Below, in pieces: positions 4,470-27,998 of a DNA stretch of 64,000 nt. Within the stretch, counting starts at the first letter, position 1, and each line of letters opens with the position of its first letter. Under the pieces are notes generated by a model. That model saw only the letters and a program-made list of their open reading frames with translations, was not told the origin of the DNA and did no database searches. Source of the stretch: Pseudomonadota bacterium (GTDB lineage Bacteria; Pseudomonadota; Gammaproteobacteria; Steroidobacterales; Steroidobacteraceae); assembly GCA_021805865.1 (NCBI GenBank), contig JAJZDX010000010.1:62001-126000 (forward strand), written 5' to 3'. Made by a program: the position numbers and the translations under genes.

Positions 4470-5336
4470 CTACAACAGCACTCCCGCCAGCCGTTTGCGG
4501 TAGTCCGAGACGAGCTCCGGACGGTCTGCCGCCAGCTCGAGCGTTGACAGGAACGCACGACGGGCGGCTTCCCCGTGCTCCTTCCGGTCTTTCCTGATCA
4601 CCTCGAGCAGCTCCTCGAGCGCTGCCTCGAGCTTCCGGTCCGCGATGTAGCGCTGGGCGAGTTCCATGCGCCCCGTGAGATCGGCGGGATTGGCCGCCAC
4701 GCGGGCACGGAGCGATTGCAGGTCGGGCAGTGCAGCGCTGCTGCGCACACTGGTGAGACGCAGATCCAGGGCGCGCCAGCGCGCCTCGGCCTGTGTGCCG
4801 GCACTGGCGGAGGAAAGGACTCGCCGGGCTTCCGTGAGCTGCTGCTCATCGGGTGGTGCGGGGAGCCTGTTCAGCAGCACATCGGCGAGATCGAGCTTGG
4901 CCGCATCGTTCTGCGCCTCGAGCGTGATGGCCGCTCGCAGCGCGGTCAGAGCGCCGGCCAGATCGCCTTCCTCGATCAGCTTCGTCGCCTTGCGCCGCTC
5001 GGTCTCGCCGGGTCCGGGCAGCAGCCGGTCGAGGAATTGGCGCACCTGACTTTCTGGCAGGGCCCCGACGAAGCCGTCCACCGGCGCTCCATCGACGAAG
5101 GCCAGTACGTAGGGGATGCTGCGCACCATGAACTGTTGCGAGAGCTCGGGATTCTGGTCGGAGTTGACCTTGACCAGCTTGAAGCGCCCGCCGTAGCTCT
5201 GCTCTACGCGCTCGAGGGTGGGCCCGAGCGCCCGGCACGGCCCGCACCACTCGGCCCAGAAATCCACCAGCACCGGCTTTCGCCGGGACGCCTCGATGAC
5301 CTCGTGCTCAAAGGTGGACAGGTTCGCCTCGATCAT
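4470..5336 (-). CDS. Thioredoxin-like co-chaperone, YbbN/CnoX family
   Basis: Trx fold with WAEWCGPCRALGP followed by TPR-like C-terminus; start MIEANLSTFEHEVIEAS. Confidence 0.92.
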   Translation of the reverse strand: MIEANLSTFEHEVIEASRRKPVLVDFWAEWCGPCRALGPTLERVEQSYGGRFKLVKVNSDQNPELSQQFMVRSIPYVLAFVDGAPVDGFVGALPESQVRQFLDRLLPGPGETERRKATKLIEEGDLAGALTALRAAITLEAQNDAAKLDLADVLLNRLPAPPDEQQLTEARRVLSSASAGTQAEARWRALDLRLTSVRSSAALPDLQSLRARVAANPADLTGRMELAQRYIADRKLEAALEELLEVIRKDRKEHGEAARRAFLSTLELAADRPELVSDYRKRLAGVLL

Positions 5337-5554
5337 TTTCCCAGTGCTCCGCAGCCCAGTACCGCCATCTTGGGGGTGCCGGACCCGGTGTTCAATGGGT
5401 GCCGGGAGCGGGGCGGCGTGCGGAGTATACTGAGGAGCCCTTGTCGCGTACCCGCGAGACCATGTGCAGGTTCGCGGCATCGTTTCCATCGCAAGAGTGT
5501 GTCGTTGCAGGCGTCGCGCTCCGCTTCCCGGATGCGCGCGCGGGGTGTTGCCGG

Positions 5555-11306: not shown

Positions 11307-11443
11307 ATCGCCCGCGTGACGGCACTGTGACGCTCGTCAGGACTTGGTCAGCAATGCGTGCCAGGATGACCGCCGCCGCCCCGGGGGCGCCGGCGCCCGC
11401 TGGGTATTTCCACTCGCACTTTGTAAGGAGAGACAGGCTACTG

Positions 11444-12898
11444 ATGTCTCGGATTGGAGATTGCGGCCCGACAGCGGCCCGATGGTTTGGCACTGGCCCG
11501 CACCGGGAGCGGGGGGGGCGCTTCGCCCGCAGAGCCGTGGCGAGGGTGGCCGGATGGGCCGCCGCGGCGCTGCTCGGGGGCTGCGCGACCTATCATGCGC
11601 TGCCGCTCGCCAGCGCGCCGAATCTGTCCCCACGGCTCTCCGGATTGCGCACCGAGGTGCCGGCGCTTCGCGCTGGCGCTGCGGCGCGGCGCATCGGCCT
11701 GGACGAGCCCCTGTCCATCGATGACATCGGGATGCTTGCGGTGCTCAACGATCCGGCGCTGCGCTCCGAGCGCGGCTACCTGGGCCTCGCCCAGGCCGCC
11801 CTGCTGCAGGCAACCCTCCTGCCGAATCCCCTGGCCAGTGTCACCTTCGAGCCCTTGCTCTCGCACGGCGTCTCACCCTCCTGGTCTGCCTCCCTCACGG
11901 AGGACGTGGGAGCAATCCTGACGTATCACACCCGCGTGAAATCGGCCCGCTTCGCGCTCGGGCAGGTGAACGCCGACCTGCTCTGGCGGGAGTGGCAGGT
12001 GGCGCAGCAGGCGCGGGTACTGGCGCTCGATCTGTACTGGAACGGCCGCTCGGTCGTGCTCGCCCGCCGCGAGGTCAAGCTCCTCGATCAGGAGGTGCGC
12101 GCGGTCCGCTCGGCCACCGAAGCCCGCGTTCTGGGTCTCCCCGCGCTCGCTCCGCTGCTCGCCGCCCAGGCCTCGGCGGAACAATTCCTCGCTACGGCCG
12201 CTCTCACGCAGCAGCAGGGCTGGCAGCAGCTTGATGCATTGCTCGGACTCACTCCCGGGGTGCGCTTTGCCATTGCCGCGCCCGTGCTGGCGCCGGTGCC
12301 CTCATCACTCGAGCCCCTGATCGCCCGCCTGCCCGAGCGCCGTCCCGACCTGGTGGCGCTCAGACTGGGCTATCGCTCGGCGGATGAGAATGTGCGCACG
12401 GCGATCATCGGCCAGTTCCCCGCCCTGGTGCTCGGTGGCCAGTGGGACCAGGACAACACCAACACGAGCAACGCCGGCCCCACCGCCGCATTCGGTCTGC
12501 CGATCTTCGACCGCAACCAGGGTCAGATCGCCGCCGCACGCGCAACGCGCCGGCTGCTGCACGAGCAGTATCAGTCGCGGCTCGATCAGGCGGCCGGCGC
12601 GGCACAGGCCCTGGTGGCGCGGATCCGCCGGCTCAACCTCGATGTCGGCCGTGCACGCCGTGAGGCGCGTACGGCCGACTCGTTCTCGCGAGCGGCCAGA
12701 AGGGCCTATTCCGAGGACAATCTCGATTCGCGCTCCCTCGTCGACTACGAGACCACCGCGCTGCGGCGCCGGATCGAGGCGAACACGCTCGAGCTGTCCC
12801 TCGGCGAGGCGCACATCGCACTCACGGTCGATCTGGGGCTCGGACTGCCGCGAGCCCGCATTGCCCTGCCCGCACATCCGAGGACATTTGCAGAATGA
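11444..12898 (+). CDS. TolC/OprM-family outer membrane efflux protein (lipoprotein)
   Basis: Lipobox-like AALLGGCATYH; OEP repeats (ERRPDLVALRLGYRSADENVRTA); AAGGAG upstream of ATG. Confidence 0.9.
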   Translation: MSRIGDCGPTAARWFGTGPHRERGGRFARRAVARVAGWAAAALLGGCATYHALPLASAPNLSPRLSGLRTEVPALRAGAAARRIGLDEPLSIDDIGMLAVLNDPALRSERGYLGLAQAALLQATLLPNPLASVTFEPLLSHGVSPSWSASLTEDVGAILTYHTRVKSARFALGQVNADLLWREWQVAQQARVLALDLYWNGRSVVLARREVKLLDQEVRAVRSATEARVLGLPALAPLLAAQASAEQFLATAALTQQQGWQQLDALLGLTPGVRFAIAAPVLAPVPSSLEPLIARLPERRPDLVALRLGYRSADENVRTAIIGQFPALVLGGQWDQDNTNTSNAGPTAAFGLPIFDRNQGQIAAARATRRLLHEQYQSRLDQAAGAAQALVARIRRLNLDVGRARREARTADSFSRAARRAYSEDNLDSRSLVDYETTALRRRIEANTLELSLGEAHIALTVDLGLGLPRARIALPAHPRTFAE

Positions 12899-13950
12899 GC
12901 CGAGCCGCCGCCTGTGCCGCCTGTATCGCGATCAGCCTCGCCGCGCCGTTGGCGCCGGCGTACGCCAAGAGCGCACCGACACCGAGCGTGTTGGTCACCC
13001 TGACGCCGGTCAAGGAGGGCGCCCTTCCGCACGAGGTGATCGGCTACGGCACCGTGGGTCCGAGCAGCGCGGGCCGCAAGACCGTCATGGCGCCGGTGTC
13101 GGCGGTGGTCGGTGACGTGTACGTGCGCCTCGGCGAGGCGGTGTCCCGGGGCGCGCCGCTCGTGCGCCTGGTGCCGAGCCCGCAGACGGCCGCCTCCTAC
13201 GCGCAGGCGCAGTCCGCCCTTCTCGTCGCCCGACACCTGGTGGCGAGCACCCGCACGCTCGTCGCCGAGCATCTGGCGACTGCGCAACAGCTGGCCAACG
13301 CGAGGAAGACGCTGACCGATGCGCGCTCGCAGCTTCGGGCCTTTCAGTCGCTCGGAGCCTCCGGCTCAAACATCGTGCGCGCTCCGTTCTCGGCGATCGT
13401 GACCGCCCTTACGGCGAGCCCCGGTGCGATCGTCGTGCAGGGAACGCCGCTGCTCGATCTGGCCGAGCCCCGCGCGCTGGTGCTCACCGCCGGGGTCGTG
13501 CCGGTTCAGGCGGGGGAAATCAACGCCGACGATCCGGCCCGCGTCACCGTGATCGGCGGGCATCATTCCGTCGCCGCGCGGGTGCTGCTGCGCGGGGAAG
13601 TGGCTCAGTCAGGCTCCGGTCTGGTGCCGATCGAGATCGCGCTGCCGCCGGGGAAATTCCTGCCGGGCGAGATGGCCGAGGCGGCCATCACGACGCGCGA
13701 GGTCCGGGGGTACGTGGTGCCGCACGAGGCGATTCTGGTCGACAACAGCGGCGCCACGTATGTCGTTCAAGCCGTCAATCGCGTTGCGCGCAAAGTGCTC
13801 GTGCACATCCTCGATTCGCACGGTGATCGGAACGTCATCTCCGGGGCGCTCGATGTCCGTGCGCCGCTGGTGCTCACCGGCAATCACCAGCTCAGCGACG
13901 GCATGCGCATCCGGCTCGCCGATCCGGGCCCGCACGGAGTCAAGCGGTGA
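12895..13950 (+). CDS. RND efflux periplasmic adaptor
   Basis: Signal peptide, lipoyl/barrel motifs; translationally coupled (ATGA overlaps) to both neighbours. Confidence 0.9.
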   Translation: MSRAAACAACIAISLAAPLAPAYAKSAPTPSVLVTLTPVKEGALPHEVIGYGTVGPSSAGRKTVMAPVSAVVGDVYVRLGEAVSRGAPLVRLVPSPQTAASYAQAQSALLVARHLVASTRTLVAEHLATAQQLANARKTLTDARSQLRAFQSLGASGSNIVRAPFSAIVTALTASPGAIVVQGTPLLDLAEPRALVLTAGVVPVQAGEINADDPARVTVIGGHHSVAARVLLRGEVAQSGSGLVPIEIALPPGKFLPGEMAEAAITTREVRGYVVPHEAILVDNSGATYVVQAVNRVARKVLVHILDSHGDRNVISGALDVRAPLVLTGNHQLSDGMRIRLADPGPHGVKR

Positions 13951-16900
13951 CCTTTACCGACTGGGTGGAGCGTCACCGTCGCTCGCTTCTGACGGTCGCG
14001 TTCGCCCTCGCTCTCGCGGGTGTCTTTGCGGCGATCACCCTCCCGGTGGGGCTGTTCCCGGTCACGAGTTTCCCGCGCATCCGCATCGAGGTGAGCACCG
14101 GCGCCATGCCGCCGAGGCAGATGCTGATCGATGTGACCGAGCCGCTCGAGCGCGTGGCGCGAGCGGTCCCGGGCGCGGAGGATGTCAGCTCGACCACCTC
14201 GCGGGGATCGGCGCAGATCTACGTCGATTTCCCCTGGGGCTACGACATGAAGGAGGCGCTGCTCGCGGTCGACGCGGCCTTCGCCCAGGAGTTGCCGGCG
14301 CTGCCGAAGGGCACGTCCTACATCATCATCCAGATGAGCCCGGACATCCTGATGCCGTTCGTGTCCTACTCGCTCACCTCGAGCAAGGTCTCGTATGCGG
14401 CGCTCAGGCGGCTGGCCAAGTACCAGATCGTGCCGCTGCTCACCGGCATCCCGGGCGTGCGCCGCGTGGGCGTGCTCGGCGGGAATACTCCGGAGGTGGA
14501 GGTCTCGGTCAATCCGCGCGAGCTTCAGGCCTACGGCCTGACCCTCGCGCAGGTCTCCCAGGCTCTCGCGCAGTCCAACATCATCCGCGCGGTCGGCCGG
14601 CTGCAGGACAACGATCTGCTGTACCTCGCGATCAGCGACAACGCCTTCACCTCGATCCGCTCGGTGCGCAGGGTCGCGCTGCGCGCGGGCCGGGCCGGCA
14701 TCGTCCGCCTCGGCGACATCGCCACGGTCACCATGGGGTCGGTGCCGAGGTGGCTGATAGTCGATGACAATGGCCACCCCGGCGTCAACATCAACGTCTA
14801 TCAGCAAAGCTCCGCCGACTCCCTGAAGCTCGCCGATGAGGTGAGGCAGAAGCTGGCGGCGTTCATGAAGACCGAGCCGCGATCCATTCATCTCGGCAAG
14901 TGGTATGACCAGACCCAGCTCGTGCGCTCCTCGGTCTCGGCGCTCGAGGAGGCGATCCTGATCGGTCTGGTGTTCGCGGGGATGGTGCTGCTCGCGTTCC
15001 TGCGCAACTGGCGGGTGACGCTGGTGGCGATGATCGTGGTGCCGCTGTCGGTGCTGATCACGGTGCTGCTGCTCTCGCTCCTTGGCATGACCTTCAACAT
15101 CATGACCCTCGGCGGCATCGCCGCCGCGATCGGCCTGCTGATCGATGACGTGATCGTGATGGTCGAGCACATCGCCCGCCGCGCGGGCCTGCCCCACATC
15201 GTCAACCCGCATGCGACGGTGCTCGAGGCGGCCAAGGAGTTCTTCGGTCCGCTGCTCGGCTCGAGCCTGGCGACCACCATCATCTTCATCCCGCTCGCGT
15301 TCCTCTCGGGCGTCACCGGAGCGTTCTTCAAGTTCCTCTCCCTCACGGTGGCCTCGGCGCTCATCATTTCCCTGCTGCTGACGGCCTTCACCGTGCCGCT
15401 GCTCGCCCGCAGCCTGATCGACTTCAAGACCTTCAAGGACCCCGCGCACGGCCGGGAGACCTGGCTCACGCGCACCCACGGGCGGATCCTGGGCAGGCTC
15501 TTCGAGCGCCCGCTGTGGCTGGTGCCGGGAATCGCGGTGCTGCTGCTCGTCGGCATCGTGGCCTACACCCACGTCGGCACCGGCTTCCTGCCGAGAATGG
15601 ACGAGGGCGGCTTTGTGCTCAATTACCATACGAAACCCGGCACCTCCCTCATCGAGTCGAACCGGGAGCTGCTCGAGATCGAGGCGATCCTGAAGAGGGA
15701 TCCCTATGTCGTCAGCTTCTCGCGGCGCACCGGCGCCGGGCTGGGTGGTGATCTGAATGCGACCTACGAGGGGGACTTCTTCGTGAGGCTCGTCTCCCCG
15801 TCGAAGCGTCCGGATATCTGGGCCGTGATGGACGAGATCTCGCGCAAGATCGCCGCGCAGGTGCCCGGAGTGCACTTCGACACCGCGCAGCTGATGAGCG
15901 ACATGATCGGCGATCTGGTCGGGAGGCCGCAGCCCGTGGTCGTCGCCCTCACCGCCAAGAACCCCGCGGTGCTGTCCGCGGTTGCGAGGCGGGTGGCCGC
16001 CGCGATCGCCAAGGTGCCGGACATCCAGCCCACCTCGGTCGACAGCGGGGTGAGGCCGGCCGGCGATGCTCTCGAGATCCACATGCACCGCGCGGCGGCG
16101 GCGATGGAGGGCGTGACGGCGCAGGAGGTGGCGAGCCAGCTGCATCATTACCTCTATGGCTCGGTCGTGACCCAGTATCTCGGCGCCGTCCGCCCCGTCG
16201 GCGTGCGGCTCTGGCTCGATCCGCCGCAAAAGAAGATCTACCGCGACGAGCTCGGCAATCTGCCGATCCGATCACCCACCGGGCGGATCATGCGTCTTGC
16301 CACCGTGGCTCAGGTGAGGTTCGTCGCCGGGCAGCCCGAGCTCACCCGCAACAACCTCGCGCAGATCGTGCCCGTGACGGCGCGGATCAGCGGCGGACAC
16401 AGCCTCGGCGCGGCAATCAGGGAGGTGCAAAGAGTGCTTGCGCGGCCGGGGCTGATTCCAAGAGGCGTCTATTACAGCCTCGGCGGACAGTACAAGCAGG
16501 AGCAGGCCGCGGTGCATGGCATGATCAAGGTGTTCGCCGCGGCGCTCGTCGCGGAATTCATCCTGCTCCTGTTCCTGTACGAGCGTTTCTCGCTGCCCAT
16601 CGTCGTCATCGCGAGCTCGGTGTTCTCGACGGGCGCGGTATTCGTCGGCCTGTGGCTGACCGGCGTCGAGCTCAACATCACGGCCATGATGGGCATGGTC
16701 ATGATCGTCGGCATCTCCACCGAGATGGCGATCTTCCTCATCTCCGAGTACCAGGAGCTCGAGAAGACGATGCCGGCGCGGGAAGCGATTCATCAGGCCG
16801 CCCGCAACCGGCTGCGCCCGATCACCATGAGCACGCTCGCCATGATCCTCGCTCTCCTGCCGCTCGGGGCCGCGATCAGCGGCTCCGGCGACCAGATGCT

Positions 16901-17021
16901 GCAGCCGCTCGCCATTGCGATCATCGCCGGCGCGCTGCTCGAGCTGCCGCTGGTGCTGCTCGCGATGCCGGTGATCATCGGGCTCACCGCGCGGCGCTCG
17001 ACCCCGATCGCGCACGAGTGA
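13947..17021 (+). CDS. RND efflux transporter (AcrB/CusA superfamily)
   Basis: 1024 aa; duplicated TM architecture; GGIAAAIGLLIDDVIVMVEHIARR and GMVMIVGISTEMAIFLISEYQ motifs. Confidence 0.95.
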   Translation: MTFTDWVERHRRSLLTVAFALALAGVFAAITLPVGLFPVTSFPRIRIEVSTGAMPPRQMLIDVTEPLERVARAVPGAEDVSSTTSRGSAQIYVDFPWGYDMKEALLAVDAAFAQELPALPKGTSYIIIQMSPDILMPFVSYSLTSSKVSYAALRRLAKYQIVPLLTGIPGVRRVGVLGGNTPEVEVSVNPRELQAYGLTLAQVSQALAQSNIIRAVGRLQDNDLLYLAISDNAFTSIRSVRRVALRAGRAGIVRLGDIATVTMGSVPRWLIVDDNGHPGVNINVYQQSSADSLKLADEVRQKLAAFMKTEPRSIHLGKWYDQTQLVRSSVSALEEAILIGLVFAGMVLLAFLRNWRVTLVAMIVVPLSVLITVLLLSLLGMTFNIMTLGGIAAAIGLLIDDVIVMVEHIARRAGLPHIVNPHATVLEAAKEFFGPLLGSSLATTIIFIPLAFLSGVTGAFFKFLSLTVASALIISLLLTAFTVPLLARSLIDFKTFKDPAHGRETWLTRTHGRILGRLFERPLWLVPGIAVLLLVGIVAYTHVGTGFLPRMDEGGFVLNYHTKPGTSLIESNRELLEIEAILKRDPYVVSFSRRTGAGLGGDLNATYEGDFFVRLVSPSKRPDIWAVMDEISRKIAAQVPGVHFDTAQLMSDMIGDLVGRPQPVVVALTAKNPAVLSAVARRVAAAIAKVPDIQPTSVDSGVRPAGDALEIHMHRAAAAMEGVTAQEVASQLHHYLYGSVVTQYLGAVRPVGVRLWLDPPQKKIYRDELGNLPIRSPTGRIMRLATVAQVRFVAGQPELTRNNLAQIVPVTARISGGHSLGAAIREVQRVLARPGLIPRGVYYSLGGQYKQEQAAVHGMIKVFAAALVAEFILLLFLYERFSLPIVVIASSVFSTGAVFVGLWLTGVELNITAMMGMVMIVGISTEMAIFLISEYQELEKTMPAREAIHQAARNRLRPITMSTLAMILALLPLGAAISGSGDQMLQPLAIAIIAGALLELPLVLLAMPVIIGLTARRSTPIAHE

Positions 17022-17033
17022 TCGTCCGCCGTG

Positions 17034-17945
17034 TCAGCAAGGGCCTGCGCCAGCGCTCCAGCGCCCGGCCGTCTCACCGGCGAGACCCTCGGCCTCGAGC
17101 TTCAGCAGGTGCGCGAGCAGGGATCGCTCGGCGAGCGCATGACGCTCCGCGGGCACGTCGTCGTAGACTCTCGCGACCAGGCAGGCGAGGTCAGATGGGG
17201 TCGAGTCCCTGAGCACCGCGAGCACCTTGGATTCGCGCCGCAGGCGGTGGCGGATGAGGGCGCGCACGGCCTCGCGGGGCTGGGGCATCAGGGTGCCGTG
17301 CCCAGGGGCGAGGCATCGCAGGTCTTCGCCGAGCAGGCGCTCGAGGGAGGCGAGGTAGGCGCCCATGTCGCCGTCGGGCGGATCAATGAGCACCGTGGAG
17401 CCCTGGATCACGTGATCGCCGGTGAACAGCAGCCGCTCTTCCTCGAGCAGGTAACAGAGGTGATTGGAGGCATGCCCCGGGGTGTGGATCACGCGCAGCG
17501 TCAGATCCTTCCCGAGCCTCAGGCGATCCCCGTCGTCGGGCTGGCGAGCGGGTTGGAAGGAGGCGTCCTGCCCGCGCGTCCGGGTGCTCGTGCGCCCGAT
17601 CAGCTCAGCGCCCGTGACCGATTGCAGCGCCAGCGCGCCGGGGGAATGATCCGGGTGAGTATGCGTGACGAGGATGCGCTCGATGCGACCCGGCGCGGCG
17701 GCGAGCATCGCCCGCAGGTGCCGCTCGCCACCCGGCCCGGGGTCGATGATGGTCCAGCGCTCCTCTTCGCCGAGCAGATAGGTATTGGTTCCCGGACCCG
17801 TCATCACGCCGGGGTTGGCGCAGGTGAGCCGCCAGAGCTTCTGCGACAGCCGCACCGGCTCTTCAGGCCGGATCGGGATGCTTTCCGCGCACTCGCTCAT
17901 CACTCTGGAGAGATCCGCTCCGCGCCCGCGCGCCTGGCTGGACAT
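17034..17945 (-). CDS. MBL-fold metallo-hydrolase (LACTB2-like)
   Basis: VTHTHPDHSPGAL metal-binding motif; HTPGHASNHLCYLLEEERLLFTGDHVIQG. Alternative start at 17900. Confidence 0.92.
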   Translation of the reverse strand: MSSQARGRGADLSRVMSECAESIPIRPEEPVRLSQKLWRLTCANPGVMTGPGTNTYLLGEEERWTIIDPGPGGERHLRAMLAAAPGRIERILVTHTHPDHSPGALALQSVTGAELIGRTSTRTRGQDASFQPARQPDDGDRLRLGKDLTLRVIHTPGHASNHLCYLLEEERLLFTGDHVIQGSTVLIDPPDGDMGAYLASLERLLGEDLRCLAPGHGTLMPQPREAVRALIRHRLRRESKVLAVLRDSTPSDLACLVARVYDDVPAERHALAERSLLAHLLKLEAEGLAGETAGRWSAGAGPC

Positions 17946-17956
17946 TGCCGGCCGTC

Positions 17957-19012
17957 TCAGCCCGGCAGGGCCGGATAGTCGGTGTAGCCCGCCGGTCCGC
18001 CGCCGTAGAACAGCTCCGGCCGCGGATCGTTGAGCGGCGCGCCGCTCCTGAAGCGCTCCACCAGGTCCGGATTGGCGATGAAGAGCTTGCCGAAGGCGAC
18101 TGCGTCCGCCTCGCCGCGGTCGATCAGACACTGGGCGCTCGACAGCGTCAGTTTCTCGTTGGCGATGAATACTCCGCCGAAGGCGGCCTTGATCTGCGGG
18201 CCGATCCGTCCGCCTTCCGGGTGCTCGCGCGCGAACAGGAACGCGATCCTGCGGCGGGCCAGCTCCCGCGCCACATGGCCGAAGGTCGCCTCGCGATCGG
18301 AGTCCCCCATGGAATGCGAGTCGCCCCGTGGCGCCAGATGCACCCCGACCCGGCCGGGCCCCCAGATGCCGATCGCCGCGTCGGTCACCTCGAGCAGCAG
18401 CCGGGCGCGGTTTTCCACCGACCCGCCGTAGTCGTCATCCCGGCAGTTGGCGCGGTCCTGCAGGAACTGGTCGAGCAGGTAGCCGTTGGCGCCGTGCAGC
18501 TCGACCCCGTCGAAGCCGGCGCGCTCGGCGTTCTCGGCCCCCCGTGCAAAGGCGGCGATGATCCCAGGGATCTCCTCGCGCTCGAGCGCGCGCGGAACGA
18601 CATAAGGCGTTCTCGGCCTGATGAGGTTCACATGGCCCTCGGGCGCAATGGCGCTCGGGGCGACGGGAAGCTTGCCGTCAAGGAAGAGGGGGTGAGACAC
18701 CCTGCCGACGTGCCACAGCTGCAGGAAGATGCGCCCGCCTCCCGCGTGGACCGCGCCGGTCACCTGGCGCCAGCCCGCCACCTGCTCCTGCGACCAGATG
18801 CCCGGTGTGTCGGCATGGCCCACGCCCATCGGGGTCACCACGGTGGCCTCCGAGATAATGAGGCCCGCCGAGACCCTCTGGCGGTAGTATTCCACCATCA
18901 GCTCGTTGGGCACGCGCCGGCCACCGGCCCGCGAGCGTGTCAGCGGCGCCATGACGATGCGGTTGGGGAGGGTGAGCTCGCCCACGGTGAGCGGATCGAA
19001 CAGGGACGGCAT
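17957..19012 (-). CDS. NADH:flavin oxidoreductase, Old Yellow Enzyme family
   Basis: MPSLFDPLTVGELTLPNRIVMAPLTRSRA...FDGVELHGANGYLLDQFLQDRANCRDDDYGGSVENRARLLLEV. Confidence 0.95.
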   Translation of the reverse strand: MPSLFDPLTVGELTLPNRIVMAPLTRSRAGGRRVPNELMVEYYRQRVSAGLIISEATVVTPMGVGHADTPGIWSQEQVAGWRQVTGAVHAGGGRIFLQLWHVGRVSHPLFLDGKLPVAPSAIAPEGHVNLIRPRTPYVVPRALEREEIPGIIAAFARGAENAERAGFDGVELHGANGYLLDQFLQDRANCRDDDYGGSVENRARLLLEVTDAAIGIWGPGRVGVHLAPRGDSHSMGDSDREATFGHVARELARRRIAFLFAREHPEGGRIGPQIKAAFGGVFIANEKLTLSSAQCLIDRGEADAVAFGKLFIANPDLVERFRSGAPLNDPRPELFYGGGPAGYTDYPALPG

Positions 19013-19062
19013 GGTGGTTTGCAGAAGCTCCGCGTGGAATTCCCGTATTGAACCACGGGGGG

Positions 19063-19449
19063 TCAGGCGCCGCAAAATTCCTCGTGAAGCACGCCGAGTA
19101 CACGCGTAACGAGGCCCGGAGTCAGAGAATAGTACACCGTCTGCGATTGCCGATCCGTGCGCACGACCCCGGCCTTTCGCAGCACCGCGAGGTGCTGGGA
19201 AAGCGCCGATTGGCTGAGCGGCACACGCTCGTTGAGCTGTCCCACCGAGAGAGGTCCCGGCACCAGATGACACAGGATCATCAAGCGCTGCTCGTTGGCG
19301 AGCGCCCGCAGGACGCCGGCCGCCTGGACGCAGTGCGGCTGCATCTCCTGGGCGGCTCGCTCGAGCGCGGACGCAGAGGATGCCTCGCGGCGGCGACTCA
19401 TGGACGTGGCGGACTCGCGGTGGCTGCTCACGACCGAAGTGTAATCCAT
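19063..19449 (-). CDS. ArsR-family repressor with SqrR/BigR-type dithiol signature
   Basis: LRALANEQRLMILCHLVPGPLSVGQLNERVPLSQSALSQHLAVLRKAGVV...VLHEEFCGA; from MDYTSVV the cysteines are C60 and C126, the same 66-residue separation as in BigR and SqrR. GTG start at 19467 possible. Confidence 0.88.
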   Translation of the reverse strand: MDYTSVVSSHRESATSMSRRREASSASALERAAQEMQPHCVQAAGVLRALANEQRLMILCHLVPGPLSVGQLNERVPLSQSALSQHLAVLRKAGVVRTDRQSQTVYYSLTPGLVTRVLGVLHEEFCGA

Positions 19450-19456
19450 ACGCCAC

Positions 19457-19494
19457 TTAATTACCACTTGCTAATTTAGAACACACTAATACAA
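19457..19494. promoter_or_regulatory. AT-rich divergent promoter/operator region of the ArsR regulator
   Basis: taattaccacttgctaatttagaacacactaatacaat; contains CTAA-T-TTAG and TTAG-n6-CTAA inverted half-sites in an otherwise GC-rich window. Confidence 0.5.
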
Positions 19495-19547
19495 TGTGCC
19501 GCAAGCCGGACGGCACATCCGCTCCGGCACCGCACGGGAGGCCGCAT

Positions 19548-19748
19548 ATGTCAATCGATCGCGTTGTGTTCGCTTTCGCCGGGACCGTGGTGCTTGCCGG
19601 CACCTTGCTCGGTTGGATCGCCAGTCCCTGGTGGCTGCTGCTGCCGGTCTTCGTGGGCGCAAACATGCTGCAGGCGGCCTTCACCGGCTGGTGTCCGCTG
19701 GCGATGTTGCTGAAGCGCCTGGGGGTCAAGCCAGGCGCGGCGTTCTGA
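19548..19748 (+). CDS. DUF2892 family small membrane protein (YgaP C-terminal-like)
   Basis: 66 aa, two TM helices, TGWCPLAMLLKRLGVKPG signature. Confidence 0.88.
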   Translation: MSIDRVVFAFAGTVVLAGTLLGWIASPWWLLLPVFVGANMLQAAFTGWCPLAMLLKRLGVKPGAAF

Positions 19749-19774
19749 GCCGGACCGCGCAAAGCAGGCGACAC

Positions 19775-20848
19775 ATGGCTCAGGTCAGATTCAGGCTCGC
19801 CGCCGCGCTCGCGGCCGGGGTGCTCGCAGGATGTGGTGCGAGGCATGCGCCGCCGCCCCCCCGGGCCGAGGCGCCGTTGACCTCGGTGCGCATCGAGCCG
19901 GAGCGGATTCCCGCGGAACGGCTCTTCGACGGCGTGGTTCAGGCCGCCAACCGGGCCACGATGGTCGCTCAGACCTCCGGGCGGGTCGCGGCCGTCTATC
20001 GCGACGTCGGCGATGTCGTGCCCGCCGGCGCGTTGCTCCTGCGCTTGCGCGCGACCATGCAGCGGGCGGATCTGCTCAAGGCGCATGCCGCCCTGCGCGC
20101 CGCCCGCGCCCGGGCCAAGGAGGCGCAAACCCGTTACCGGCGCATTCGCGACATGTACGACCAACGGGTCGTGCCCAAGGCGGACTTTGACCGGGTGAGG
20201 GCCGATCGGGACGCCGCGGTGGCCCGGATGAATGCGGCCCGCGCCGCGCTCGAGAGCGCCACCGAGGGCGTCGCCTATACCGAGATCCGCGCCCCTTACG
20301 CGGGCGTCGTCATCCAACGCCTGGTGCAGGTGGGCGAGGCGGTGGCGCCGGGCACGCCCCTGGTGAAGGTGGCGTCGCTGAAGGACCTGCGGGTCGTGGT
20401 GAGCGTGCCCCAGTCGCTCGCCGGGACGGTGCGCCGGGCCGGCAAGGGAATGGTGTACGTCGCAGGCTCACCCGTCGCGGCGCAGCGGGTGACGGTGTTT
20501 CCGGCCGCGTCCGCCCTGTCCAACACCTTCCGTGTCCGGCTGGCGCTGCCTGCCGGCACGCGCGGGCTGTATCCCGGCATGGTCGTGCGGGCGGGGTTCG
20601 TGACCGGCGTGCACACGCGGCTGCTGGTGCCCTGCAGCGCCGTCGTCAGGCGCAGCGCCGTCACCGCGGTCTATCTCGTTCAGCCGAACGGCAACGTGCT
20701 GATGCAGCAGGTGCGCCTCGGAGAGCGTCGCGGCAACCGCATCGAGGTGCTCTCGGGCCTGATGGCGGGCGATCGTGTGGCGCTCGATCCGCTCGTGGCG
20801 ATGCAGAGGCTCGAGCCCTTCCCGGACAGGTCGGGAACGGCGCGATGA
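19775..20848 (+). CDS. RND efflux adaptor, lipoprotein
   Basis: Lipobox GVLAGCGARH; HlyD/AcrA domains (APYAGVVIQRLVQVGEAVAPGTPLVKV). Confidence 0.92.
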   Translation: MAQVRFRLAAALAAGVLAGCGARHAPPPPRAEAPLTSVRIEPERIPAERLFDGVVQAANRATMVAQTSGRVAAVYRDVGDVVPAGALLLRLRATMQRADLLKAHAALRAARARAKEAQTRYRRIRDMYDQRVVPKADFDRVRADRDAAVARMNAARAALESATEGVAYTEIRAPYAGVVIQRLVQVGEAVAPGTPLVKVASLKDLRVVVSVPQSLAGTVRRAGKGMVYVAGSPVAAQRVTVFPAASALSNTFRVRLALPAGTRGLYPGMVVRAGFVTGVHTRLLVPCSAVVRRSAVTAVYLVQPNGNVLMQQVRLGERRGNRIEVLSGLMAGDRVALDPLVAMQRLEPFPDRSGTAR

Positions 20849-20885
20849 GCGCCCTCGTCGGGCCTGCCCGGGGCGGGAGCCGCAC

Positions 20886-23800
20886 ATGAGCGAGAAGCTC
20901 GGCTTCAGCGGGCGCCTGGCGAGCCGCTTCCTGCACAATCAGATCACCCCGCTGCTCGCGATTCTCGCGGTGGGCATGGGTCTGTTCGCGCTGGCCATCA
21001 CTCCGCGCCAGGAAGACCCCGACATCAACGTCACCTTCGCCAACGTGTTCGTTCCCTTTCCCGGGGCCTCCTCGCGCCAGGTTGAGCGCCAGGTCACCAC
21101 GCCTCTCGAGCAGGTGCTCGACTCGATCCGCGGCATCAAGCACATCTACTCCGTGTCCCGCCCCGGGCTCGCGGTCCTGACAGTGCAGTACAAGGTCGGC
21201 CAGCCGCGCACCACGGCCATCGTGCGCCTGTACAACGCCATCTATTCGCACCGCAACCTGTGGCCGCCCGGTTCCGGCATCCTGAGGCCGCTCGTGCGGC
21301 CCATGGGCATCGATGATGTGCCCTTCATGACGCTGACGCTGTGGACGACCGATCGCGGCCGCGGCTCCTACCAGCTCGGGGAGGTGGCGCGCGCCATCGA
21401 GACCCAGCTGCAGCGCGTGCCGGGCACGCGCAAGGTGTCCACGATCGGGGCGCCCGAGAGTCTCGTGCGCGTGCGCCTCGATCCGGGCAAACTCGCCGCC
21501 TACGGACTCGCGGCGAGTGACATCGAGCGCTCGCTCCAGGCGGCCAACCTGACGCTGCAGGCCGGCTCGCTCATCGGGGGCGATCGCGTGGTGCCGGTGC
21601 AGGCCGGCCAGTTCCTCGCCAGCCGCGAGGAGGTGGCCGACCTCGTGGTGGGCGTGCATGACGGGCGGCCCGTGTATCTCGCCGAAATCGCCGACGTGGC
21701 CTTTCAGCCCGATGCGCCGCATTCGTACGTGTGGTTCGGCACCGGCCCGGGCGCCGCCCGGCGCAGCCTGCCCGAGGTGAGCTACGCGCCCGCGGTCACC
21801 ATCGCCATCGCCAAGAAGACGGGCACGAACGCCAGCACCATCGCCGATGAGGTGCTCCAGCGCCTGCACCAGCTGAGCGGCACGTACATTCCCGCGGGAG
21901 TGCACATCACCGTCACGCGCAACTACGGACACAGCGCCGATGAGAAGGCGATGAAGCTCATCGAGAAGCTCATCGAAGCCACCCTCTCGGTCGTCCTGCT
22001 CGTCTTCCTCACCATGGGCCGGCGCGAGGCGGTGGTCGTGGGCGCGGCGGTCGGCGTCACCCTGATGGCGACGCTGTTCGCCTCGTGGGCGTGGGGATTC
22101 ACCATCAACCGCGTGTCGCTGTTTGCCCTGATCTTCTCCATCGGCATCCTGGTCGACGATGCGATCGTGGTGGTCGAGAATGTCCACCGGCACATGCGCC
22201 TCGGCGGCGGCACGCTGAGCGACATCATTCCGGTGGCGGTCGATGAGGTCGGCGGACCGACCATTCTTGCCACCTTCACCGTGATCGCCGCGCTCATGCC
22301 CATGGCGTTCGTCGGCGGGATGATGGGGCCGTACATGAGCCCCATTCCGATCAACGCCAGCTCCGGGATGCTGCTCTCGCTCGCGGTGGCGCTGATGTTC
22401 ACCCCGTGGCTGTGCCGCAAGCTCCTCTCCCACAGCCACATTCCGCCCACCGAGCATGCCGCGGAGCCGCCCCTGCTGAGGCTGTTTCAGCGTCTGGTCG
22501 GGCCCTTTCTCGCGGGCGTCAAGGGCCGCAAGCGGCGCCGCTGGCTCTTTGGGGCGATCGTGGCGGCGATCCTGCTGGCGATCGGCCTGGTGATCGCCAA
22601 GGCGGTGGTGCTGAAGATGCTGCCCTTCGACAACATGTCGGAATTCGAGGTGGTGGTGGAGATGCCGGTCGGTACCACCGTCGAGACCACCGCCCGCGTG
22701 CTCGATGCGCTCGCGCAGGTCATCGCGCGGGTGCCGGAGGTGAGCGACTACCAGGTCTATGCGGGCACGCATGCGCCCGTGAATTTCAACGGCCTGGTCC
22801 GCCAGTACTACCTGCGCCAGGGGCCCCGATACGGGGAGATCGCCGTGGAGCTCGTTCCGAAGGACGAGCGCAGCCGCCAGAGTCATGCGATCGCCCTCGC
22901 CGTGCGGCCGGCGCTTGCCGCCGTCGCCCGCCGCTACGGCGCGTCCCTGCAGGTGGTCGAGGTGCCCCCGGGGCCGCCGGTGCTCGCGCCCATCGTGGCC
23001 GAGATCTTCGGTCCGAGCTATGCCATGCAGCGCCGGCTCGCGCTGCAGATCCGCAAGGTGTTCGACACCACCCCCAATGTCGTCGATACCTACGACACGG
23101 TCGAGGCGCATGCCCGGCGCCTGCTCGTCGATGTCGATCGGCAGAAGGCGGCGCTTCTCGGTGTCTCGCAGGCGCAGATCGCGCGCACGCTCTCGATGGC
23201 GCTCTCCGGGTATGACGCGACCTATGTGCACATCGGCCGCGAGCGCCAGTTGATTCCGGTGCGCCTCGAGCTCTCTCCGGCCAACCAGGCGAGGATCGGC
23301 CGGGTGCTTTCGCTGCGGGTGCGCGCTTCGGATGGCGCGCTCGTGCCGCTCTCGCAGCTCGTGCGGGTGCGCAAGAGCACCTGGGACGGCGCGATCTATC
23401 AAAAGGACCTCATGCCCGTGACCTATGTCATGGGGGACATGGCAGGTCCCCTCGACAGTCCTCTTTACGGCATGTTCGACATCTCCGCGCGGCTGCGCCG
23501 GCTGAAGATCGCCGGTCGGACCCTCGAGCAACGCTTCATCAGCGTGCCGTCCAACCCGAACCGCTTCGCGCTCAAGTGGGGCGGCGAATGGCAGGTCACC
23601 TACGAGACCTTCCGCGACATGGGAATCGCCTACGCCGTGGGGCTGGCGCTCATCTACCTGCTGATCGTGGCGCAGTTCGGCTCCTACGTGGTGCCGTTCA
23701 TCATCATGGCGCCGATCCCGCTCACCATCATCGGCGTGATGCCCGGGCATGCGCTGCTTGGCGATCAGTTCACCGCCACCTCGATGATCGGCATGATTGC

Positions 23801-24128
23801 GCTCGCCGGCATCATCGTGCGCAATTCCATCCTGCTGGTCGACTTCGTCGACGGCGCCGTGCGGGCCGGCTACCCGCTCGAGGAAGCGGTGGTTCGAGCG
23901 GGGGCGATCCGTGCCAAGCCGATCGTCCTCACCGCGGTGGCCGCGATGCTCGGCGCGGTGTTCATCCTGTCCGACCCGATCTTCACCGGTCTGGCGGTCT
24001 CGCTCCTGTTCGGCATCTTCGTCTCGACGCTTCTCACGCTCGTCGTGATCCCGATCCTCTATTACGTCTATCTGAAGCGCAAAGAGGCGAGCGTGGTGCG
24101 CGCGCCCGAGGCGGCGGCTCATGAGTGA
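20886..24128 (+). CDS. RND efflux transporter (HAE/AcrB superfamily)
   Basis: 1080 aa; FSIGILVDDAIVVVENVHRHM and GMIALAGIIVRNSILLVDFVDGA motifs. Confidence 0.95.
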   Translation: MSEKLGFSGRLASRFLHNQITPLLAILAVGMGLFALAITPRQEDPDINVTFANVFVPFPGASSRQVERQVTTPLEQVLDSIRGIKHIYSVSRPGLAVLTVQYKVGQPRTTAIVRLYNAIYSHRNLWPPGSGILRPLVRPMGIDDVPFMTLTLWTTDRGRGSYQLGEVARAIETQLQRVPGTRKVSTIGAPESLVRVRLDPGKLAAYGLAASDIERSLQAANLTLQAGSLIGGDRVVPVQAGQFLASREEVADLVVGVHDGRPVYLAEIADVAFQPDAPHSYVWFGTGPGAARRSLPEVSYAPAVTIAIAKKTGTNASTIADEVLQRLHQLSGTYIPAGVHITVTRNYGHSADEKAMKLIEKLIEATLSVVLLVFLTMGRREAVVVGAAVGVTLMATLFASWAWGFTINRVSLFALIFSIGILVDDAIVVVENVHRHMRLGGGTLSDIIPVAVDEVGGPTILATFTVIAALMPMAFVGGMMGPYMSPIPINASSGMLLSLAVALMFTPWLCRKLLSHSHIPPTEHAAEPPLLRLFQRLVGPFLAGVKGRKRRRWLFGAIVAAILLAIGLVIAKAVVLKMLPFDNMSEFEVVVEMPVGTTVETTARVLDALAQVIARVPEVSDYQVYAGTHAPVNFNGLVRQYYLRQGPRYGEIAVELVPKDERSRQSHAIALAVRPALAAVARRYGASLQVVEVPPGPPVLAPIVAEIFGPSYAMQRRLALQIRKVFDTTPNVVDTYDTVEAHARRLLVDVDRQKAALLGVSQAQIARTLSMALSGYDATYVHIGRERQLIPVRLELSPANQARIGRVLSLRVRASDGALVPLSQLVRVRKSTWDGAIYQKDLMPVTYVMGDMAGPLDSPLYGMFDISARLRRLKIAGRTLEQRFISVPSNPNRFALKWGGEWQVTYETFRDMGIAYAVGLALIYLLIVAQFGSYVVPFIIMAPIPLTIIGVMPGHALLGDQFTATSMIGMIALAGIIVRNSILLVDFVDGAVRAGYPLEEAVVRAGAIRAKPIVLTAVAAMLGAVFILSDPIFTGLAVSLLFGIFVSTLLTLVVIPILYYVYLKRKEASVVRAPEAAAHE

Positions 24129-24194
24129 CGGGCGCGCCATCCCGATGTTCGACCCGGTCACTTGCCTGCGAGAGCTTCTCTCCTGGGGGTTGTC

Positions 24195-25475
24195 ATGGCA
24201 CACGTAGTCATCATCGGTGCGGGCCTGGGGGGCGTCCCCTGCGCCTACGAGATGCGCAAGCGTCTCGGCAAGGCGCATCACGTGACGCTCATCGGCTCCT
24301 CGTCCTATTTCGAGTTCACCCCGTCCAATCCCTGGGTGGCCGTCGGCTGGCGGGACCGGGCTCAGACCCGCGTGAGCCTGCACGATCCGCTCACCGCCAA
24401 GGGTGTCGACTGGATCGACACCCCTGTGGTCTCGATCGATGCCGAGGGCCGGATCCTGACGCTCGCCGATCAACGGACCCTGGCCTATGACTATCTGGTG
24501 ATCACCACGGGGCCGAAGCTCGCCTTCGAGGAGGTGCCGGGCCTGGGCCCCGACGGGCACACCCAGTCGATCTGTACCCAGGAGCACGCGGTGAGGGCCT
24601 GGGAGGAATATCAGCGATTGCTGCAGCAGCCGGGTCCGGTGGTGGTCGGGGCGGCACAGGGGGCGAGCTGTTTCGGACCGGCGTACGAGTTTGCGATGAT
24701 CCTCGATGCGGATCTTCGCAAGCGCAAGCTGCGCGACCGTGTGCCGATCACCTTCGTCACCAGCGAGCCGTACATCGGGCACATGGGCCTGGGGGGCGTG
24801 GGCGACAGCAAGGGGCTGATGGAATCGGAGCTTCGCCAGCGCCACATCAAGTGGATCACCAACGCCAGGGTGGGCGCCGTCGGGGAGGGCTCGATGACCG
24901 TGATCGAGCACGCGGAGGACGGCAAGCCGAAAAAGGAGCACGAGCTCGGCTTTCGCTTCGCCATGGTGCTGCCGGCATTCAAGGGCGTAGATGCGGTGGC
25001 CGCGGTCCCGGGGCTGTGCAACCCGCGCGGCTTCGTGCTCATCGACGAGCATCAGCGCTCGAAGAAGTACCCCAACATCTTCTCGGCCGGCGTATGCGTC
25101 GCCATCCCTCCCGTGGAGGCGACCCCGGTGCCGACCGGCGCGCCCAAGACCGGCTACATGATCGAGTCGATGGTGACGGCGATCTGCGAGAACATCGCCG
25201 CGGAGCTCACCGGGCGGCCGGGGACGGCGTGCGCGACCTGGAATGCGGTGTGCCTCGCCGACTTCGGCGACACCGGCGCGGCGTTCGTGGCGTTGCCGCA
25301 GATCCCGCCGCGCAACGTCACCTGGACCAAGGTGGGCAAATGGGTGCACCTCGGCAAAGTGGCCTTCGAGAAGTACTTCCTGCGCAAGGTGCGTACCGGA
25401 TCGATCACCCCGCTGTACGAGAAATACGTGCTCAAGATCCTCGGCATCGGCTCGCTCAAGAGCACGGGAACATGA
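24195..25475 (+). CDS. sqr: Sulfide:quinone oxidoreductase, Acidithiobacillus-like type
   Basis: MAHVVIIGAGLGGVPCAYEM...SICTQEH...GAAQGASCFGPAYEFAMI...DEHQRSKKYPNIFSAGV...PVPTGAPKTGYMIESM...WNAVCLADFGD; cysteines C127, C159, C353 align by eye with the redox cysteines of A. ferrooxidans SQR (C128/C160/C356). Confidence 0.93.
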   Translation: MAHVVIIGAGLGGVPCAYEMRKRLGKAHHVTLIGSSSYFEFTPSNPWVAVGWRDRAQTRVSLHDPLTAKGVDWIDTPVVSIDAEGRILTLADQRTLAYDYLVITTGPKLAFEEVPGLGPDGHTQSICTQEHAVRAWEEYQRLLQQPGPVVVGAAQGASCFGPAYEFAMILDADLRKRKLRDRVPITFVTSEPYIGHMGLGGVGDSKGLMESELRQRHIKWITNARVGAVGEGSMTVIEHAEDGKPKKEHELGFRFAMVLPAFKGVDAVAAVPGLCNPRGFVLIDEHQRSKKYPNIFSAGVCVAIPPVEATPVPTGAPKTGYMIESMVTAICENIAAELTGRPGTACATWNAVCLADFGDTGAAFVALPQIPPRNVTWTKVGKWVHLGKVAFEKYFLRKVRTGSITPLYEKYVLKILGIGSLKSTGT

Positions 25476-26767
25476 GAGCGCTGCGCGCACCGCGAATCGC
25501 CGCGGCGCTGCTGCTGGCGGCGGCAGGGCCCGCCGCCGCCGAGACGCTGAGGCAGGCGTGGCGGCTGGCCATCGCCCGCAACCAGGCACTGGCCGCAGCC
25601 CAGGCGGACGTGCAGGGGGCGAGAGACCGGGAGCGTGCGGCGCGCGATGCGCGCTGGCCGAGCGTGAGCGCCACCGCCGGCTACACACATCTCGGACAGT
25701 CGCCGCAGCTGGATGTGGTGACGCCGGCGTTCGCATTCCGCTCGGGGCCGATCTTCAAGAACAACCAGTACGTCAGCGGCTCGGTGCAGATGAGGATCCC
25801 CCTCTACACCGGCGGGGCGATCAGGGCGGGAATCAGCGCGGCGCGGGCAGGTCTCGCCGGGGCCTCCGCGCAGGAGCGGGCGATGCTCGCGGACCTGAAG
25901 CTGGAGGTGGCCGACGGGTACGTGGGAGTGCTGCGCTCACAGCGCCGGTTGGCCGTGGCCGACGCAGCCGTCAGGAGTCTGCGCTCCCACCTGCGCGACG
26001 TGCGGGCGATGTACGCGCGCCAGCTGGTAGCGAAGAGCGATCTGCTCGCGGCCGAGGTGGCGCTCGCCAATGCAAGGGAGACAAAGGTGAACGCCGCCAA
26101 CTCCGTGCAGATCGCGCAGGCGGAGTACAACCGGCTGCTCGGGGAGCCGCTCGGGCGCGTGCCGCAGCTCGCCGACGCGCTGCCGGCGTACCCGGTCGAC
26201 ATGCTGCCGCTCGCCACGCTCCTGAGGCGGGCGCTCGCCTCGCGCCCCGAGCTCCGGGCGCTCGCCTCGCGCGCCGGCTCCCTCGCCGCCCGCGCCCGCG
26301 CGAAGACCGCCAGCCGGCTGCCGCAGCTCGCGGCCGTGGGCGGCTTCACGCATTTTGACAACCAGATCCTCAATCGCGAGAACTTCTCGACGGTGGGCGT
26401 CGGGCTCACCTGGAAGCTGTTCGACGGTGGGCGGGCGGCGAACGAGGCCGATGCGCTGCGCGCCGAGAGCCGCGCGGCGGGACGCCGGCTGAGGGACCTG
26501 CGCTCGCGCATCGAGCTTCAGGTGCGTGCCGACTGGCTGGCGCTCGCCGCGGCGCGGGCGAAAGTGGCCGCCTCGCGCGCCGCCACCGCGCAGGCGGCGG
26601 AGAATCTGCGCATCTCGCGCGAGCTGTACGGGGCGGGCCTGGCTTCCAACACGCAGGTGCTCGAGGCGGTCACTTTGAGCACGAGGGCTGCGGAGAATCA
26701 CGACGACGCGGTGCTCGATGAGGCGCTCGCGAAGGTAACGCTCGCCTACGCGGTAGGGGCGCTGTGA
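25472..26767 (+). CDS. TolC-family outer membrane efflux protein
   Basis: Signal peptide (AAALLLAAAGPAAAETLRQAWRLAIARNQAL), OEP repeats; ATGA-coupled to sqr. Confidence 0.92.
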   Translation: MRALRAPRIAAALLLAAAGPAAAETLRQAWRLAIARNQALAAAQADVQGARDRERAARDARWPSVSATAGYTHLGQSPQLDVVTPAFAFRSGPIFKNNQYVSGSVQMRIPLYTGGAIRAGISAARAGLAGASAQERAMLADLKLEVADGYVGVLRSQRRLAVADAAVRSLRSHLRDVRAMYARQLVAKSDLLAAEVALANARETKVNAANSVQIAQAEYNRLLGEPLGRVPQLADALPAYPVDMLPLATLLRRALASRPELRALASRAGSLAARARAKTASRLPQLAAVGGFTHFDNQILNRENFSTVGVGLTWKLFDGGRAANEADALRAESRAAGRRLRDLRSRIELQVRADWLALAAARAKVAASRAATAQAAENLRISRELYGAGLASNTQVLEAVTLSTRAAENHDDAVLDEALAKVTLAYAVGAL

Positions 26768-26774
26768 GAGGCGG

Positions 26775-27998
26775 CTAGCCCAGCTTCAGCAGCTGGGTGA
26801 TGAGCGCGTCGGTGTTGATCGGCTCGCCGGAGAGCGCCATGGCGAGCAGCTCGCCGCCGAGCAGCGGCAGGGTGAGCAGCACATCGGGGCGCGTGCGGGC
26901 GATGCGGCCGGTATTGCGGGTGTCGGCGACCGCGGCGACGGTGTGCACGGTCGGGTTCATCTCCTTGGCCGCCAGCACGACGAAGGCGTTGTAGGAGTCG
27001 TCCTCGCTCAGTGCGAGCACGGCGCGCGCCTGGACGATGCCGGCGTGCTCGAGGACTTCGGCATCGCTGCCGTCGCCGACGATGAGGTCCTCCGGCTGAG
27101 GCTCGCTGTCCCCCGGCTTCTCGGATCGGATGACAGTGACGGTGAGTGCGCGGGCCGACAGCGCCCGGGCGGTGTCCTGCGCGAGCGGACCGTCGCCCAC
27201 GACGATGATGTGGGAGGCGCGCTTCATCTTCTTTCTCCTTCCCGGCTGCAGCAGATTCATCAGCCGCTTGTCGATCAACGGGCCGGCGATCGCCGGCAGC
27301 GCCGTGGCGAACACCGCCAGGCCGAGCACGATGAGCGAGATCGTGAACAGGCGGGCGGCGGGGCTCGCCGGCGTGATGTCCCCGTACCCCACGGTCGACA
27401 TGGTCTCGACGGCGTAATACAACGCGTCGAGGAGACTGCGGATCGGCGGGTTGTAGCCTGCGCCAAGGGCGAGCGATCCCAGGGTACCGTAGCCCAGGGT
27501 GAACAGCAGCCCCGTGAGGGCGAACAGCGTCGCGGTGGCGAGGCTGGCGCGCGTGAAGCTGCCGCGGGCGGCGAGCAGCAACAGCAGTTGCGCGATGCCG
27601 AAGGCTTCGAGCGGCCTCGAGGCCCTCGAGAGCGGCGAGAACTCGAGCGACACCATTGCGAGCGTCAGGAGGAATGCCAGCACCCAGGCGAGCCGCGAGC
27701 GCCACAGCATCCCGACGGCGACGAGGACCAGCAGCACGCCGATGACCACGTGCGACACGTCGCCGATCTGCACGATGCCCAGGCCGGTTGCGAGCGATGC
27801 GATCGATGCGCTGCCGGTCCAGGCCGCAATCAGCGGCCGCAGCGAGCCGGAGGCGAGCAGGATGTGCAGCAACCCCTGCGTGCCGACCAGGGCGGCGAGG
27901 GGAACGTGCGGAAACCATGCGCGTGCGTGCAGGAAGCGAGCGGTACGGCGGCGCGCCGTCTGCCACCTCACGCGCAGGGTGGTCGTGGCGACTCGCAC
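26775..27998 (-). CDS. Voltage-gated-type potassium channel with TrkA-N domain (Kch-like)
   Basis: Selectivity filter ETMSTVGYGDITP; C-terminal Rossmann domain HIIVVGDGPLAQDTARAL. Confidence 0.92.
   Translation of the reverse strand: MRVATTTLRVRWQTARRRTARFLHARAWFPHVPLAALVGTQGLLHILLASGSLRPLIAAWTGSASIASLATGLGIVQIGDVSHVVIGVLLVLVAVGMLWRSRLAWVLAFLLTLAMVSLEFSPLSRASRPLEAFGIAQLLLLLAARGSFTRASLATATLFALTGLLFTLGYGTLGSLALGAGYNPPIRSLLDALYYAVETMSTVGYGDITPASPAARLFTISLIVLGLAVFATALPAIAGPLIDKRLMNLLQPGRRKKMKRASHIIVVGDGPLAQDTARALSARALTVTVIRSEKPGDSEPQPEDLIVGDGSDAEVLEHAGIVQARAVLALSEDDSYNAFVVLAAKEMNPTVHTVAAVADTRNTGRIARTRPDVLLTLPLLGGELLAMALSGEPINTDALITQLLKLG

Follow-up and report, generated by a model that had tools for sequence, protein, structure and literature searches.

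We predict that a locus pairing a sulfide:quinone oxidoreductase (SQR) gene with the genes of a tripartite RND efflux pump forms a dedicated detoxification operon inducible by sulfide or persulfide, in which SQR would oxidize sulfide and the pump would remove the product or a related toxicant. We give this reading as a whole an even chance, and we consider it likely that SQR and the tripartite pump are co-expressed under sulfide/persulfide control. The regulation and the association of SQR with the pump are well supported; the pump substrate is what we infer. The locus lies in a 64,000-nucleotide stretch of DNA (here called the window; positions 62001 to 126000 of the contig) from a 4.68-Mb genome of 98.75% completeness, and the evidence comprises its gene content, the overlap of an operator with a promoter, conservation within the genus, and repeated linkage of the genes.

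Gene content and control region

The six ORFs of the locus were located in the order and with the spacing proposed in the first-pass annotation, namely, an ArsR gene on the minus strand facing YgaP_TM (DUF2892)-MFP-RND-SQR-TolC on the plus strand (Table 1), and they match the expected Pfam families (i.e., HTH_5, YgaP-like_TM, HlyD_D23/HlyD_3, ACR_tran, Pyr_redox_2, and OEP). The sqr and tolC genes do share an ATGA (SQR end, 25475; TolC start, 25472), and the remaining operon junctions measure 26, 37, and 66 bp. A long antisense ORF (20661 to 25736, minus strand) was without support and was read as a high-GC artifact.

Table 1. Features of the pump/SQR locus and adjoining genes (positions in the window)
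Feature	Position	Strand	Remarks
MBL-fold hydrolase-like ORF	17034..17990	-	THTHPDH motif; start uncertain; from translation
Old Yellow Enzyme (OYE)-type flavin oxidoreductase	17957..19012	-	Directly after arsR; PF00724, 226.5 bits
ArsR-family dithiol repressor, SqrR/BigR/HlyU subfamily	19063..19449	-	C60/C126; HTH_metalloreg
Second, weaker operator copy	19459..19479	-	Overlaps the first
Sigma-70-type promoter of the pump/SQR operon	19468..19495	+	TTGCTA-16-TACAAT; kept in 15 genus loci
Predicted operator	19471..19491	+	CTAATTTAG-AACACA-CTAATA; inside promoter; footprint in 15 genus loci
YgaP-like transmembrane protein (DUF2892)	19548..19748	+	66 aa; conserved Cys-Pro; PF11127, 47.4 bits (cut-off, 25.3)
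RND periplasmic adaptor (MFP)	19775..20848	+	Lipoprotein, LAGC lipobox; TIGR01730, 204.7 bits (cut-off, 94.9)
RND permease	20886..24128	+	PF00873, 501.6 bits; TM4 Asp pair D424/D425
SQR, A. ferrooxidans type	24195..25475	+	C127/C159/C353; 559 bits to 3sz0/3kpk, residues 2-424
TolC-family outer membrane channel	25472..26767	+	PF02321, 192 bits

With an adaptor, a permease, and an outer membrane channel in one operon, the family profiles describe a tripartite RND efflux system. The homologs of the permease are 56 to 95% identical to it and form a subfamily that is common in sulfur oxidizers. The permease has a TM4 of the HAE type and a single cysteine, and a heavy-metal RND was rejected on the score of the CusA/CzcA model TIGR00914 (233 bits, far under the cut-off of 701). 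By sequence, the closest solved adaptor and permease are those of 6vej, which we take to be TriABC, the Pseudomonas aeruginosa triclosan pump, an exporter of a drug. The similarity is low, the window encodes one adaptor as opposed to two in 6vej, and we know of no sulfur gene linked to the 6vej pump. A second tripartite efflux operon (OMF-MFP-RND; 11327 to 17021, plus strand) lies just upstream of the locus and adjoins it in much of the genus; the two RND proteins are 23% identical. The window also contains a YbbN-like thioredoxin-TPR gene (4470 to 5489, minus strand).

The SQR can be aligned from end to end with its closest relative, the enzyme of Acidithiobacillus ferrooxidans (3kpk and 3sz0), whose redox cysteines are matched by C127, C159, and C353, in agreement with the earlier claim that all three are kept. 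This similarity supports its assignment to the A. ferrooxidans type, with quinone reduction as the predicted activity; the window SQR differs in being encoded inside an efflux operon. No second SQR of this type was found in the genome. Genome searches for SoxB and DsrA were likewise negative, and Sox and Dsr lithotrophy were therefore rejected, while a Blh-type query for persulfide dioxygenase returned two matches that resemble glyoxalase II-type enzymes in their motifs. Within the three families covered (SoxB, DsrA, and persulfide dioxygenase), we thus found no apparent means of oxidizing the SQR product, which makes an exit route for that product plausible.

The repressor had been described as SqrR/BigR-like, with C60 and C126 separated by 66 residues as in the BigR and SqrR pair, and both points hold. 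Translation starting with the ATG at 19449 gives three cysteines, C40, C60, and C126. In an alignment of 17 RND-linked ArsR sequences, some of them from distant betaproteobacterial loci, every sequence keeps C60 and C126, while C40 is variable. By sequence, the solved proteins nearest to the repressor are HlyU, SqrR, NolR, BigR, and YgaV; in a comparison based on the predicted model (mean pLDDT, 80.7), the metal sensors CzrA and SmtB come behind HlyU, SqrR, BigR, and NolR. In that model, C60 falls in helix H53-62 and C126 just past H113-125, as expected of an alpha2/alpha5 cysteine pair. The NCBIfam model HTH_metalloreg scored above its cut-off, and the BigR equivalog NF040642 scored 80.3 bits (cut-off, 155); the protein is thus a relative in the BigR subfamily and not BigR itself. 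A metal-sensing ArsR was rejected, since neither the ELCVCD nor the DxH...HxxH site was visible on inspection of the alignment and the nearest relatives are of the wrong kind. Sequence and model together support a repressor of the SqrR/BigR/HlyU dithiol type, i.e., a putative persulfide sensor.

The overlap of promoter and operator, its conservation, and its uniqueness in the genome support a dedicated control region between the divergent genes. The promoter is the sole promoter-like site within 19000 to 26900, and a near-invariant TTGCTAAWTTAG-N6-CTAATATA is common to 15 genus loci (consensus, CTAAWTTAG-N6-CTAATA). The window site matches this motif with 0 mismatches (chance expectation at ≤3 mismatches, 0.04 per window), and at ≤2 mismatches the motif occurs at this locus only in the whole genome. 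The downstream YgaP_TM start is at a position conserved among relatives. The operator core CTAAATTAG is present in the Vibrio cholerae HlyU operator oligonucleotide (PMC10509353), and the repressor and HlyU have the same recognition helix, SQSALSQHLA. Together, these features point to a local repressor with a single target region, in which the operon promoter lies.

The OYE-type reductase encoded behind arsR scored 366 bits against the NemA subfamily model, just under the cut-off of 403, and the MBL-fold ORF overlaps the end of its gene. In most genomes of the genus, though not in every one, the reductase gene adjoins arsR; it was not found beside arsR in the basal members L162 and L163. The reductase and MBL-fold genes, which the first-pass annotation had left unmentioned, are a possible second arm of the regulon, and with their position beside the repressor, a part in electrophile defense, the main rival explanation, is possible.

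Linkage of the pump and SQR genes within and beyond the genus

Across 37 genomes of the genus (the present one included), the RND gene was found in 21 and the SQR gene in 19. SQR is present in 19 of the 21 RND-bearing genomes and in 0 of the 16 RND-less congeners (Fisher, 1.2e-8), and every SQR genome has the RND. SQR remains linked to the RND; the two are adjacent in the 17 genus genomes where this could be measured, with an RND-SQR gap of 50 to 94 bp, and one genome (G001) is arranged differently. The two RND genomes without an intact SQR are G012, where the locus meets a contig edge, and G003, where sqr (L169:9537-9866) carries a large in-frame internal deletion that keeps approximately 54 N-terminal and 30 C-terminal residues. 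The repressor is kept in G003, and the RND and TolC genes are open despite the deletion.

In an evenly drawn sample of 369 genomes of the class, the RND clade was detected in 101, SQR in 105, and both in 55 (odds ratio, 5.2; p = 6e-11, uncorrected for phylogeny). Of the 54 genomes left when the window was set aside, 4 had the two genes within 5 kb of each other, where chance would predict 0.26 (p = 1.4e-4). Since two of these four genomes belong to one family, it is safer to count three separate events (p of about 0.002, Poisson by hand).

On a FastTree phylogeny of 94 RND proteins, which has some long branches, SQR linkage requires six changes; well-supported branches force at least four of them, and gains and losses are indistinguishable. 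The gene orders also differ. They are RND-SQR-TolC in this genus, MFP-SQR-RND in L091 and L106, SQR-MFP-RND in L154 and L155, MFP-RND-YgaP_TM-SQR in L156, and MFP-RND-YgaP_TM-TolC-SQR-rhodanese in L152, while in L153 RND-MFP-YgaP_TM-ArsR is divergent from SQR-TrxC. In L091, a Blh-like sulfur dioxygenase gene comes first in the operon (SDO-MFP-SQR-RND-YgaP_TM), with a dithiol ArsR gene divergent from it. On the basis of the six changes and the differing orders, the RND-SQR pairing probably arose repeatedly. This repeated linkage in different orders, L091 included, is the strongest evidence for a place of the pump in sulfide handling.

The majority of the RND relatives in sulfur oxidizers have no adjoining SQR. 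Two SQR-linked loci (L152 in G001 and L156 in G368) have a divergent ArsR without the dithiol pair and with LCDLVCGQ near its C terminus, and a second SQR copy stands beside a more distant RND-MFP pair in L157 and L158 (G210 and G416); in L157, a gene that is PAS-like by eye lies between the two. Five betaproteobacterial loci (L064, L066, L067, L079, and L114) show ArsR-MFP-RND-YgaP_TM followed by Wzy_C (O-antigen-ligase-like) and then a rhodanese. The rhodanese-grxC-secB-gpsA group beside betaproteobacterial RND genes was rejected as independent evidence, since neighbor clustering, with gene names assigned by eye, identified it as a fixed housekeeping neighborhood.

Relation to known systems

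The first-pass annotation knew of no characterized SQR placed between RND and TolC genes, a remark that needs correction as regards SQR in an RND operon. In Azospira suillum PS, Dsui_3440-3443 (annotated as unknown-RND-SQR-MFP) is strongly expressed under H2S and was flagged by transposon fitness (PMC5358917), and a survey placed RND pumps among the likely targets of dithiol ArsR regulators (PMC12423496); the SQR-pump pairing is thus not unprecedented. Like the window operon, that of Azospira unites SQR, RND, MFP, and a small extra protein, with homology as given by the annotation in the paper. In Azospira, SQR is flanked by MFP and RND, an order shared with L091 and L106, and no TolC is named, whereas the window has YgaP_TM-MFP-RND-SQR-TolC, with SQR between RND and TolC and a divergent dithiol repressor. 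Deletion of sqr or of the whole Azospira operon left the rate of perchlorate-coupled H2S oxidation unchanged; the readout was this oxidation rate, and the organism has another sulfide-oxidizing route (PMC5358917).

The repressor resembles SqrR, BigR, HlyU, and YgaV in its fold, the 66-residue cysteine spacing, the HlyU-like operator core, and a divergent sulfur target. The target itself differs: the known repressors act on bigR-blh, sqr alone, or hlyA, and the one in the window would act on a tripartite pump operon that includes SQR. The bigR-blh operons of Xylella and Agrobacterium likewise place sulfide detoxification under BigR-type control, with no RND pump mentioned (PMC5823870); the window locus in contrast is without a Blh-like enzyme, and in L091 the RND-SQR genes come together with a Blh-like dioxygenase. 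Our analysis adds to this a defined RND subfamily and the arrangement of operator and promoter, along with a conserved RND-SQR-TolC form and linkage that recurs.

Proposed function and alternatives

According to the detoxification reading, the repressor would sit on the operator that overlaps the sole operon promoter. As reactive sulfur rises, C60 and C126 would be joined by a polysulfide bridge and the repressor would leave; YgaP_TM, the adaptor, the RND pump, SQR, and TolC would then be made together. SQR would convert sulfide to polysulfide or S0 and pass the electrons to quinone, and the pump may pick up polysulfide, S0, or a closely related sulfane-sulfur species in the periplasm or at the outer leaflet and discharge it through the outer membrane. 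The sensing chemistry and the SQR reaction are taken from knowledge of the respective families. That the pump exports what SQR produces, or a sulfane-sulfur species close to it, a substrate that we infer, has in our estimation equal chances of being right or wrong. The repressor class with its cysteine pair, the unique operator-promoter overlap, the linkage in the genus and the class, L091, and the induced Azospira operon argue for the detoxification reading, while the Azospira deletion result, the RND relatives without SQR, G003, the ArsR proteins of L152 and L156, and drug export by 6vej argue against it.

A different role for the pump is one that we consider possible although on the doubtful side. 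Reactive sulfur would be the signal, the pump would export toxicants that rise with it (e.g., electrophiles, quinone-thiol adducts, or hydrophobic drugs), and SQR would be a separate arm of one stress regulon. The OYE-type and MBL-fold genes that adjoin the repressor look like parts of an electrophile defense, the closest solved adaptor and pump belong to the triclosan pump TriABC, and G003 retains the pump without an intact sqr. Sulfane-sulfur sensing by regulators of drug efflux has also been published. However, toxicant export would leave unexplained both the repeated placement of SQR in pump operons and the tracking of SQR-bearing genomes by the RND subfamily, and the OYE gene was not found beside the basal members L162 and L163.

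Export of metal ions or of metal-sulfide complexes formed under sulfide stress is improbable. The nearest MAGs presumably come from a metal-rich habitat, which would favor it, but the CusA/CzcA score, the HAE-type TM4, and the single cysteine of the permease speak against a metal pump, as does a repressor in which inspection revealed neither metal site. Export of metal sulfides by RND pumps was the suggestion of the Azospira authors (PMC5358917). It is similarly hard to credit that SQR is a passenger, brought next to the pump by genomic accident and not coupled to it in function. In favor of this view, the majority of RND relatives are without an adjoining SQR, and a more distant RND clade shows one case of linkage as well (L157 and L158), yet several separate linkages in differing gene orders, the tight RND-SQR spacing kept over the genus, and the excess over chance in the class sample all weigh against an accident.

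Our search of the open-access literature found no sulfane-sulfur substrate of an RND pump. We tentatively raise the idea, at some distance from conviction, that the RND subfamily, repeatedly joined to SQR, may be dedicated to carrying polysulfide or zero-valent sulfur out through the outer membrane in sulfide-oxidizing Gram-negative bacteria. If true, this would explain how sulfide-oxidizing cells place elemental sulfur outside. A pump subfamily that is widespread in sulfur oxidizers, has been joined to SQR several times, and stands here beside a persulfide-type repressor offers a direct genetic test. The locus suggests a cell that, besides oxidizing sulfide, expels a product or by-product of that oxidation.
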